Shown: positions 6,997-52,515 of the stretch, piece after piece | Numbering within the stretch: position 1 is the first letter of the stretch | Layout of the letters: the number at the start of each line of letters is the position of its first letter | Source of the DNA: a virus | Strand: one strand, 5' to 3' | IMG/VR virus record: IMGVR_UViG_3300038701_003045 | Location: 1-56,474 of that record | Length of the DNA stretch: 56,474 nucleotides | Translations under genes and position numbers: made by a program | Notes under the pieces: model-generated | What the model was told of the DNA's origin: nothing | The model's input: only the letters and a program-made list of their open reading frames with translations | The model's database searches: none

Positions 6997-7329
6997 ATGG
7001 CAAACAATTTTAAAAGAAAAACATCAAGAGGAATTGGAACTGTAGCAACAACAATCGGCTCCTATACTCCGGCTGCGAACACACAAGTAACTGTTATCGG
7101 CTTATCTGCGGCAAACATTACTACATCTCCAATAAGTGTGACATTCAGCCATCATAATGGTGCTGATGTTACAACAATAGTTAAAGATGCAACAATTCCA
7201 GCCGGCGGCGCGTTAGTTGTTGTTGGTGGAGATCAAAAGATGGTTTTAGAACCAGGTGATATTATCAGTGTTACTTCTTCAGCTGCATCGTCTGTTGACG
7301 CAATCATGTCAATATTAGAAATTACATAG
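6997..7329 (+). CDS. small virion structural protein, 110 aa
   Basis: A beta-rich 110-residue protein starting MANNFKRKTSRGIGTVATTIG, ending at TAG 7327-7329. Proteins of this form, with a basic N-terminus followed by a predicted beta-sandwich (VTVIGLSAANITTSPISVTF, PAGGALVVVGGDQKMVLEPGD), recur in fibre/neck regions of T4-like marine phages. It sits 3 nt after the previous gene in the fibre operon. A decoration or fibre-attachment role is inference only. Confidence 0.55.
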   Translation: MANNFKRKTSRGIGTVATTIGSYTPAANTQVTVIGLSAANITTSPISVTFSHHNGADVTTIVKDATIPAGGALVVVGGDQKMVLEPGDIISVTSSAASSVDAIMSILEIT

Positions 7330-50050: not shown

Positions 50051-50244
50051 TCGTCTTCCTTTATTATATAATTGAAATTGTTTTTACATGACAAGCAAGT
50101 AAAGCTTATCTTTGAAGTTTTTTGTGATATTATTTTATTTGATTTAATAATTAAAGAATTTGGAGCTTCACAAACTACACATTCGCCTTCAATTATTGGT
50201 AGGGTTTCGCCTTCTACTTCATCATGAAAACTTTTTATCAACAT
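50047..50244 (-). CDS. zinc-ribbon protein, 65 aa
   Basis: Chosen start ATG 50244 with GAGGA 7 nt before; a longer frame from 50301 would lie in the GIY-YIG gene. Two knuckles, ECVVCEAP and FTCLSCKNNF, make a four-Cys zinc ribbon of about 40 residues. Nucleic-acid or protein binding is likely. Overlaps the GIY-YIG gene end. Confidence 0.65.
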   Translation of the reverse strand: MLIKSFHDEVEGETLPIIEGECVVCEAPNSLIIKSNKIISQKTSKISFTCLSCKNNFNYIIKEDE

Positions 50245-50650
50245 TAGATAATCCTCTTTGAGTAACTCTGCAGGATATCCAACCATTATAATAATCATCA
50301 CTTAAAAGAACATTTCTTAAAAATTGTTCCCTAGCTTCTAGATAACTCATTTCAGCTTTATTTTCACATAAGTATAAAATTTCACGTTTATAATCTTTTA
50401 AGCTGTCTTGATTTGATGTTTCTTCCTTTAAGAGTTCATTAGAACCATAGTAAGTAAGCCAATCGGAATCTACTTTAGATATTCTTCTTCGCTTTTTACC
50501 CTTAAGAGGTGGTCTTTTCACAGTGTTGAAAAATATTTTTTTCCCAATATACTTTTTATTGGTAATTGTGTTTGTAATACAATACACAAAGCCTATAACA
50601 TTTTCGGGAATATCTTCTTTTTCAAATTTTTTATTTTTATAATACCACAT
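50222..50650 (-). CDS. GIY-YIG-type nuclease-like protein
   Basis: 142 residues from ATG 50650, beginning just beyond the tmRNA. ENVIGFVYCITNTITNKKYI and GKKIFF match the GIY-YIG N-terminal strands (VYxIT..KYIGK), then DWLTYYGSNELLKEE and AREQFL with the Glu. Such small phage nucleases are free-standing homing or repair enzymes. A TATAAATA ends 5 nt before the ATG and there is no ribosome site, so translation may be leaderless. Confidence 0.7.
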   Translation of the reverse strand: MWYYKNKKFEKEDIPENVIGFVYCITNTITNKKYIGKKIFFNTVKRPPLKGKKRRRISKVDSDWLTYYGSNELLKEETSNQDSLKDYKREILYLCENKAEMSYLEAREQFLRNVLLSDDYYNGWISCRVTQRGLSNVDKKFS

Positions 50651-50655
50651 ATAGT

Positions 50656-50663
50656 TATTTATA
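50656..50663 (-). promoter_or_regulatory. possible T4-type late promoter between tmRNA and GIY-YIG gene
   Basis: TATAAATA on the minus strand directly after the tmRNA 3' hairpin; the ATG follows after 5 nt. Confidence 0.45.
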
Positions 50664-50671
50664 AAAATGGT

Positions 50672-50955
50672 GAGGGGATTCTGTTGCCAAGTTCCCCTCA
50701 AACTCCGTTAGGCAGCTAGCTGCTCAACATATGCATTGTTATCGTTTGCATTTACGTGTTTTAGTCTTTTACAGTAACAACACTGAAGCGCAAATAGATC
50801 TATTGTTTTAGTCGATCCTATTTCAGCCCCATCAAAAAGAGCGCAGTTTTTACTTTTCACTCCCGCAACCATCCGTCTAAAAGACAGCCTGCGCTCTTTG
50901 TGGTGGAGCTGCCGGGTATTGCACCCGGGTCCTATAAACAAATCAAAATACTTGT
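50672..50955 (-). ncRNA. ssrA: permuted two-piece tmRNA (alphaproteobacterial type)
   Basis: Read leftward, the acceptor piece comes first. T-arm CCGGG-TGCAATA-CCCGG (50928-50912), then CAGCTCC, A, CCA (50911-50901). An intervening segment (50900-50831) is closed by an 11-bp hairpin. The coding piece starts GGGGCTGAAATAGGATCGAC (50830). GGGGCTG pairs with CAGCTCC and keeps the G3-U70 wobble recognised by alanyl-tRNA synthetase. The tag frame from GCA 50749 reads ANDNNAYVEQLAA, stop 50710-50708. A 7-bp hairpin (50699-50672) ends the gene. The 5' boundary is approximate. Confidence 0.92.
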
Positions 50956-50997
50956 TTACGCTCATTCATTCTTTATTATTTATTAAAAAAATCATCC

Positions 50998-51309
50998 TTA
51001 ATGTAGATTGACATGATCAGAATTCCATTTTATATAAGGACCAAGCATTGCTTCTAGTAAAGAAAGCTGGTCATCAACATATTGTAAATTCTCTCTCAAT
51101 TTTGAACTATCGGAATATTTTTTATTTAAAAAGCTATATACTTGATTTGAAATCTCAATATTACAGTCCATAGCTGTTTGCAAATCAAGATCACAATAAT
51201 CGTATTCAGTGATGGTAATGTCACCATCAATGGCATTACCTTTCACTTTTATTTCGGTTTTCATACCCTCAATAATAACTTCAATTGTTTCGTTAAAATC
51301 AATACTCAT
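50998..51309 (-). CDS. hypothetical protein, 103 aa
   Basis: 103 residues: beta-rich start (NETIEVIIEGMKTEIKVKGN, ITITEYDYCDLDLQTAMDC) then a helical C-terminus (KLRENLQYVDDQLSLLEAML). Lies between the tmRNA and the HTH-phosphoesterase gene. Not recognised; no catalytic motif. Confidence 0.6.
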   Translation of the reverse strand: MSIDFNETIEVIIEGMKTEIKVKGNAIDGDITITEYDYCDLDLQTAMDCNIEISNQVYSFLNKKYSDSSKLRENLQYVDDQLSLLEAMLGPYIKWNSDHVNLH

Positions 51310-51312
51310 ATT

Positions 51313-52515
51313 CTATTCCACAAAAAATTCTGTTAATCTTGCAATTTGTCCATTTTTGTCATTGTGAATAAATGCTTCAATAGCAGGGAAATTCATATAA
51401 CCATTTCTAGAATGCCAGCCGTCAGCCGGAGAAGGACTTCTTACAGTTTCTATATATACACTATTTTCAGGGTCTTGTACATAGGAAGGCGACAAAATAG
51501 TGAAGCCAATGTGATCTTTTTCAATCAATTGCTTATTAACTTTTCTATGTTTGTGATGAGTGTGGTGTGTGTATAGATATGCAAATTTAGTTTTACCCCA
51601 ATGCTGGCGAGCTTCCATTTGCATAAGATTAGCTAAATCTTTTTCTTTAGCGCCATCGCCATGAGTAAATCCAATAAGATTGTTACCATAAACGATATAT
51701 TTTCTATGATTAATGGATACTGATTTGTTATCTTCGCCAAATGAAACTCTTTCGACATTATTAAACCAAGAAGAAATAGTATCGGCTAACATCCAACCAG
51801 ACATATAATCATGATTTGATGGACAGAAAACAACATGGACTTCAGAGAATGTCATCATAACTTCAATTGCTTTAATGTAAGCTTTCTTAGCCGCCAAGAA
51901 CATTTCCCACCATTGACCATCTGTGTCTTGCGGGGTTCCTGAAGTTGTAGTTCTATTTGGTTTATCGATATGAATGATATCATTACCAATAACAAATACA
52001 ATCTTTTCAAATCCAAATGCTGATGATGCTCTTGATACAAGACGTTCAATTCCTAATTGAAGTCTTTCGACTGCTTTTTCAGTATTATATTCATCGCCAC
52101 CTGTTTCATATGATTTGGCAAGCTTACCAATATGAACATCAGCTGCATCGATAATAAGTAGATTATTTTCGTCTTTAAATATGTTTTTATTAAACATATC
52201 ATTTGAATAAACCGGTGCGTGATTTTTCATTTCTTCAATGAATGAATCTCGAATATCTTCATATGACATCTGCTTGTTATTCTTCCATAGCAAACTGATG
52301 TTTTTACCTTTTACCCATGCCATTGAAACTTCATCATAAGGAATGCCATTCTCTTTACATTCTTTATAAACTGTAGCTTCAGGATCAGCATAGTATCGAT
52401 CAATTCTACGACTAAGCGTGCGAGGATCGATACCTAATTCTCTAGCAGCCGCAGCTTTTGTTTGATATTTTTCTAAAGCTTCGAACGCTTGTACTGATTC
52501 TTCTCTTGTTATCAT
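51313..52515 (-). CDS. HTH-metallophosphoesterase fusion
   Basis: 400 residues. Residues ~1-35 form a Fis-type helix-turn-helix (SVQAFEALEKYQTKAAAARE, LGIDPRTLSRRI). From ~120 on, a large calcineurin-type phosphoesterase has AADVHIGKLA, VIGNDIIHID, CPSNHDYMSG, GFTHGDGAKEK and YTHHTHHKH. Fusions of this kind occur in many phages and may direct a nuclease or phosphatase to DNA; substrate unknown. It overlaps the HAD gene by 4 nt. Confidence 0.85.
   Translation of the reverse strand: MITREESVQAFEALEKYQTKAAAARELGIDPRTLSRRIDRYYADPEATVYKECKENGIPYDEVSMAWVKGKNISLLWKNNKQMSYEDIRDSFIEEMKNHAPVYSNDMFNKNIFKDENNLLIIDAADVHIGKLAKSYETGGDEYNTEKAVERLQLGIERLVSRASSAFGFEKIVFVIGNDIIHIDKPNRTTTSGTPQDTDGQWWEMFLAAKKAYIKAIEVMMTFSEVHVVFCPSNHDYMSGWMLADTISSWFNNVERVSFGEDNKSVSINHRKYIVYGNNLIGFTHGDGAKEKDLANLMQMEARQHWGKTKFAYLYTHHTHHKHRKVNKQLIEKDHIGFTILSPSYVQDPENSVYIETVRSPSPADGWHSRNGYMNFPAIEAFIHNDKNGQIARLTEFFVE

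Follow-up and report, generated by a model that had tools for sequence, protein, structure and literature searches.

Three major forms of the tmRNA gene have been distinguished, namely the standard, intron and permuted forms (PMC11915505). In phages, the two-piece tmRNA of Melnitz was described in 2022, and 53 two-piece tmRNAs, 50 of them marine or aquatic, have been counted in a phage database (PMC9004378). The tmRNA of mycobacteriophage DS6A amounts to little more than a tRNA-like domain (TLD) and lacks a tag (PMC4131195). Here, we compare with these systems a tmRNA gene located in the window, by which we mean the entire 56,474-nt stretch of DNA analyzed, an IMG/VR virus record with a GC content of 32%.

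Anatomy, pairing and tag of the permuted tmRNA gene

On the minus strand, where the first-pass annotation had recognized the parts of a circularly permuted tmRNA and proposed Rfam and ARAGORN as checks, the Rfam model alpha_tmRNA reached 131.5 bits, with a cut-off of 50 (E = 1.1e-35, positions 50669–51011), and the Rfam model tmRNA_permuted scored 125.6 bits against a cut-off of 47 (positions 50708–50963, the same strand). ARAGORN likewise reported a permuted tmRNA, at positions 50617–50995, with the tag ANDNNAYVEQLAA that had been read before. All parts that had been named were present. The location first given (50672–50955) was right, and its limits were too narrow; the gene is slightly longer, and its 5΄ limit lies near 50967, or at 51011 according to the covariance model (Table 1). 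The window thus contains a complete permuted tmRNA gene of the alphaproteobacterial type, with its own tag, in a T4-like phage.

Table 1. Coordinates of the window gene, its parts and neighbors, and of related units in other contigs
Feature	Position	Strand	Basis
Window: entire permuted tmRNA gene (precursor RNA)	50669..50967, 5΄ end approximate	-	Rfam, ARAGORN
Window: acceptor piece	50901..50967	-	sequence, covariance-model alignment, T-stem covariation
Window: P2 helix 3΄ strand, in acceptor piece	~50963-50933	-	covariance-model alignment
Window: GGAC, T-arm, acceptor 3΄ strand CAGCUCC, encoded CCA (GGAC-T-arm-CAGCTCCACCA)	50932-50901	-	sequence
Window: intervening segment, 70 nt	50831..50900	-	coordinates, fold
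Window: coding piece (GGGGCUG and D-arm, P2 5΄ strand, PK1-like hairpin, tag, putative terminal pseudoknot)	50669..50830	-	sequence, covariance model
Window: acceptor 5΄ strand GGGGCUG and D-arm, GGGGCTGAAATAGGATCGAC	50830-50811	-	sequence
Window: tag frame, resume codon GCA to TAA, ANDNNAYVEQLAA and stop	50708..50749	-	ARAGORN
Window: terminal structure, writable as H-type pseudoknot	50669..50706	-	sequence
Window: gp47-like recombination exonuclease, upstream, synteny anchor	51313..52515	-	PHROG 704, E=1e-64
Window: 103-aa ORF immediately upstream of tmRNA, without family match	50998..51309	-	ORF list, PHROG search
Window: single-domain GIY-YIG-type nuclease, downstream, synteny anchor, ATG at 50650	50222..50650	-	PHROG 447/7363
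L151/L167: TLD, tag and terminal structure	8118-7850	minus	sequence, at window's tmRNA locus
L155: 167-nt unit	2400-2234	minus	sequence
L159: 167-nt unit	from 6377	plus	sequence
L161: 167-nt unit	2535-2369	minus	sequence
L173: 167-nt unit	from 3066	minus	sequence

In the RNA, the parts follow one another in the order P2 3΄ strand, T-arm with CCA, intervening segment, GGGGCTGAAATAGGATCGAC, P2 5΄ strand, PK1-like hairpin, tag and terminal structure; that is, the acceptor piece, whose CCA ends at 50901, lies 5΄ of the coding piece, whose GGGG starts at 50830. The acceptor stem GGGGCUG/CAGCUCC is formed across both pieces with 7/7 pairs, including the G3-U70 pair to which the earlier annotation had drawn attention. 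The 70-nt intervening segment, which is presumably removed during maturation, contains an 11-bp hairpin (arms at 50899–50889 and 50846–50836) with a folding energy of –23.0 kcal/mol. The final element, initially taken for a hairpin, is present and is read here as a pseudoknot with the helices GAGUU/AACUU and UGAGGGG/CCCCUCA and the motif GGCAACAGAA, the pseudoknot pairing being inferred by eye. PK1 is represented by a short, PK1-like hairpin, and the terminal helix and its motif are present and conserved; covariation was assessed for the acceptor and T stems. The gene resembles the alphaproteobacterial permuted tmRNA (RF01849/RF04321) in gene order, TLD, G3-U70, the hydrophobic-Ala-Ala end of the tag and the terminal GGCAACAGAA structure. 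It differs in its phage location, its unique tag and a shorter region from the tag to the terminal structure, which appears as a 48-position deletion in the model alignment.

We aligned 29 distinct phage tRNA-like domains (39 columns) and found that 100% of the cells in the acceptor and T stems were paired, that 8 of the 12 pairs had changed on both sides, and that G3-U70 was invariant (29/29). The covariation score was 0.599, compared with 0.133 after shuffling, and pairing fell to 50–56% when the partners were slid by 1–3 columns. These sequences were gathered partly with patterns demanding GGGG or GGGA and (T)CCACCA, so that the constancy of the outer acceptor pairs reflects how the data were selected; free of this bias are the covarying pairs at acceptor positions 4–6 (in cultured phages) and throughout the T stem. 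The contiguous TLDs alone (21 distinct sequences) covary too.

The same strand also holds an 85-aa ORF (50708–50965) that shares its stop codon with the tag, and its protein might be the real product, the likeness to an RNA being incidental. The 131.5-bit match and the covariation of pairs across relatives rule this out: because the acceptor and T stems covary, the ORF is unable to explain the stem pattern, and we assign this explanation a negligible probability.

The tag of the window gene has a resume codon, an open frame and a hydrophobic-Ala-Ala end. In line with the initial claim of a tag of its own, ANDNNAYVEQLA, back-translated with all codons, occurred in no other viral contig, and the exact tag occurred in none of the genomes of 84,980 species of bacteria and archaea, in a search without a positive control. 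The tmRNA-core pattern used in the host search also matched 0 genomes, again without a positive control. ARAGORN found 34 distinct phage tags among 66 contigs from the 20-mer matches listed, and 32 of the 34 end in Ala-Ala; an end that is kept while the middle of the tag varies is as expected if a degron is selected. The wide variation of phage tags, together with the absence of the exact tag from the other viral contigs and the bacterial genomes scanned, might indicate that proteins carrying this tag meet a fate other than that given by the host tag, such as faster or slower proteolysis of host proteins. However, its LAA end is an ordinary ClpXP-type degron, bacterial tags drift too, and the sequence gives no sign of a different reader, and we consider such redirection very unlikely.

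Genomic context and permuted tmRNAs of other phages

The contig carries a T4-like phage gene set (terminase, sheath, portal, major capsid, DnaB helicase and DNA polymerase), which agrees with the earlier assignment of the gene to a phage. Judged by the capsid protein, the closest cultured phage is Rhizobium phage RHph_I1_18 (66.5% amino acid identity), then Stenotrophomonas phage DLP6 (58.9%), and Caulobacter phage Cr30 and Melnitz are also among the nearest. The gp47-like gene, the 103-aa ORF, the tmRNA gene and the GIY-YIG-type gene, whose assignment is based on a sequence motif, are all encoded in the same direction. The GIY-YIG gene is directly preceded by a late-promoter sequence of the T4 type (TATAAATA, 50663–50656); a promoter scan around the tmRNA gene yielded nothing above chance. 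The tmRNA was the only Rfam match in the window, and no riboswitch appeared even at a relaxed threshold; control by a riboswitch as in Melnitz was accordingly rejected. A phage-encoded SmpB was also rejected, as SmpB was found neither in the window nor in 15 phage records, and a host partner is therefore needed.

Prophages frequently integrate in ssrA (PMC9004378), and the gene might accordingly be cellular, either through contig contamination or as the remnant of an attachment site at which a prophage had integrated. However, it is complete and lies between phage genes of a T4-like genome. Its best match among the sequences compared is a phage sequence: the tag and terminal region shows 79.5% identity over 88 nt to the trailing piece of L167. 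This contig belongs to record IMGVR_UViG_3300035698_007159 (G001; L151/L167, 13,345 bp), where 13 proteins of the window have matches in conserved order and the same neighbors flank a tmRNA-derived gene. The synteny and the phage context rule out a cellular origin unless the relatives are also assembly artefacts, and we regard it as highly improbable. Amino acid identities to the window in L167 are 70% for gp47 and 72% for the GIY-YIG-type protein; gp47 of another relative, L157, is 68% identical to that of the window and 75.6% to that of L167.

The first-pass annotation had called a permuted tmRNA in a phage unusual. This does not stand, because of the 53 cases already counted (PMC9004378), the annotation of some permuted tmRNAs in GenBank phage records (Melnitz, Marzo) and the number of contigs found here. 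The 20-mer GGGGYTGAAATRGGATCGAC matched at least 120 viral contigs, and a CCA-ending acceptor strand with 7/7 pairs was located 7–383 nt upstream in at least 119 (119 among the matches listed). Two-piece phage tmRNAs are thus already known and are common in environmental phages. Among cultured phages, permuted tmRNAs are present in DLP6, RHph_I1_18, HTVC008M, Melnitz, Marzo and Pseudomonas phage SM1, and blastn added Stenotrophomonas phages of the Moby/Mendera group. Several relatives of the window phage showed none, most of those records being fragments.

Two of these permuted tmRNAs are unannotated, that of DLP6 (L132/L147, record 102807–103150, tag ANDDSFAPMAIAA) and that of SM1 (L208 342–762, tag ANDTSFDVRLAA); the gammaproteobacteria, to which the hosts of both phages belong, have one-piece tmRNAs of their own. 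Very short permuted phage tmRNAs occur at L005, L014, L016, L023, L031, L037, L042, L054, L061, L075, L079 and similar loci, with approximately 27 nt from the D-arm to the resume codon, apparently no PK1, and a tag of the ANDNFAPSGYALAA type.

The window phage shares with Melnitz and the SAR11 myophages (PMC9004378) its T4-like character and a permuted alphaproteobacterial-type gene with its own tag, but represents another lineage. Its tag differs from those of Melnitz (ANDNYVPVDYALAA) and HTVC008M (ANFNEYALAA), its gene lies between gp47 and GIY-YIG whereas that of Melnitz lies upstream of the late-transcription coactivator, and no glutamine riboswitch was found in the window. The genes of the two nearest cultured phages by capsid, RHph_I1_18 (tag ANDNSVQVRLAA) and DLP6, are likewise permuted; unlike the window gene, they are located in tRNA clusters.

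Contiguous tRNA-like domains with and without a tag

At the position of the window's tmRNA, G001 carries a contiguous 73-nt tRNA-like domain, GGGAGTG...GGATCGAC...GGAC...CACTTCCACCA, with 7/7 acceptor pairs and G3-U70. Its RF00023 score of 43.7 bits is just below the cut-off of 47, and it folds with –24.5 kcal/mol (z-score –3.3). A decayed second 5΄ half, GGATGTGAAAT, is located approximately 70 nt 3΄ of the CCA, followed by an intact tag frame (ANDNTNMLSLAA and a stop codon) and a terminal structure. In L157, a contiguous tRNA-like domain lies behind gp47 and is directly followed by an ORF-like stretch; the 97 nt left of the contig contain no tag. In the simplest history, a permuted tmRNA would have turned into a contiguous TLD before L157 and L167 split, the tag piece being kept in L167. 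The form with a contiguous TLD differs from the permuted gene and is possibly new. Judged by its description (PMC4131195), the DS6A tmRNA shares with the window gene a phage tRNA-like domain of tmRNA; its form is like that of the relatives' compact genes and unlike the window gene, which, being permuted and tagged, falls outside the TLD-only (DS6A-type) class of contiguous TLDs without a tag.

A related arrangement was found in two pairs of contigs, L155/L159 and L161/L173, as a 167-nt unit consisting of a TLD (70 nt), a spacer (21 nt), a tag (42 nt; ANDNWNIDYR[L/T]AA and a stop codon) and a terminal structure (34 nt). Between the two pairs, the TLD is 94%, the spacer 90%, the tag 88% and the terminal structure 94% identical without gaps, while the flanks are unrelated (37%); the differences in the TLD include a compensatory T-stem change. 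Over the whole unit, alpha_tmRNA scored 25–26 bits, below the cut-off of 50. The order acceptor 5΄ strand, D-arm, P2, T-arm, CCA, tag and terminal structure is neither standard nor permuted. Because it is conserved as a unit between unrelated flanks, it appears to be more than a mere relic, although recent transfer could explain the conservation in L155/L161 as well. We tentatively suggest, as a possible rather than a probable reading, that the permuted tmRNA was rebuilt in relatives of this phage into a third topology, represented by L167 at the window's locus and by L155/L161. In it, a self-contained TLD, which runs from the 5΄ acceptor half through the D-arm, a short P2 hairpin and the T-arm to CCA, would precede the tag and terminal structure and be kept with them as a unit with its own function, either trans-translation with a coding piece that is unpaired with the acceptor stem or interference with host tmRNA.

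Tag-less TLDs of 62–84 nt with G3-U70 occur in many environmental phages, several of them amid tRNA genes. Pattern searches found alphaproteobacterial-type examples in L157, L160, L170 and L203/L204; these fall below the RF00023 cut-off (L203, 38.4 bits) or are unlisted. Approximately 14 of the 22 matches to the first compact-TLD pattern, with 3–5 of 7 acceptor pairs, were discarded as chance. A second, standard-type pattern gave 29 matches (L174–L202), of which 27 are domains of 79–84 nt with 7/7 acceptor pairs and G3-U70, and two (L176 and L201) were discarded as chance matches with poor acceptor pairing. The 12 standard-type contigs put to Rfam (L174, L175, L177, L178, L179, L180, L183, L187, L189, L190, L196 and L197) scored 67–81 bits with RF00023 (cut-off 47). 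The cultured Streptomyces phages BRock (L205 391–471, 64.5 bits) and LuckySocke (L206 391–471, 57.1 bits) also carry unannotated TLD-only tmRNAs above the RF00023 cut-off, located between tRNA genes.

Other RNA elements were observed in these contigs. Pistol ribozyme matches are present in L179 (6093–6154) and L187 (5916–6012), which both also carry a TLD-only tmRNA. In L170, a manA RNA-like match (7004–7179; 47.6 bits, cut-off 55.2) lies directly upstream of the TLD-only tmRNA, which heads a cluster of some 20 tRNA genes.

Proposed function and its meaning for the phage clade

We consider it probable that the window gene encodes a working circularly permuted tmRNA of a T4-like phage, that is, a phage-supplied trans-translation RNA using the host machinery. 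From established knowledge of tmRNA, we infer its transcription, processing, charging, use of host SmpB, proteolysis of tagged proteins and benefit to the phage. The tmRNA would probably be cut from a polycistronic gp47-GIY-YIG RNA by host tRNA-processing enzymes, the intervening hairpin keeping CCA next to GGGG up to its excision, and the mature form would consist of the acceptor and coding pieces joined by the acceptor stem and P2 pairing. Given the retained G3-U70, host alanyl-tRNA synthetase could charge this molecule, which host SmpB would deliver to ribosomes that have stalled on truncated mRNA. There, the phage tag (A)ANDNNAYVEQLAA would be added to the nascent chain before its release, and the LAA end, which fits a ClpXP-type degron, might lead to degradation by host proteases. 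The likely gain for the phage would be that ribosomes are freed and amino acids recycled while mRNA is being cleaved in the infected cell.

The RNA might instead act mainly as a competitor of host tmRNA that takes SmpB and stalled ribosomes and thereby blunts or alters host trans-translation, the tag being minor. Strong inhibition of tmRNA by a molecule that consists of the TLD alone, perhaps through titration of SmpB, has been reported (PMC4131195), and the tag-less domains of many phages and of the window's relatives at the same locus are consistent with such a role, as is the failure to find a phage SmpB in the window and 15 phage records. However, the window gene has kept its coding piece, an open tag ending in LAA and a putative terminal pseudoknot, none of which a pure decoy needs, and we therefore hold a mainly competitive role to be unlikely and favor trans-translation. 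Tagging is nevertheless not indispensable in this phage clade, because the form into which the gene has been rebuilt in the same-locus relatives may lack tagging activity.

With the window gene, a known group gains a further phage, whose tag is unique. Within one phage clade, some members have a full tagging tmRNA at this locus and others a rebuilt tRNA-like domain, and the latter, by the precedent of DS6A, may block host tmRNA. This comparison offers a way to test whether it is ribosome rescue or its suppression that benefits phages, and also whether a tag piece that lies behind a CCA end, unpaired with the tRNA-like domain, can work.
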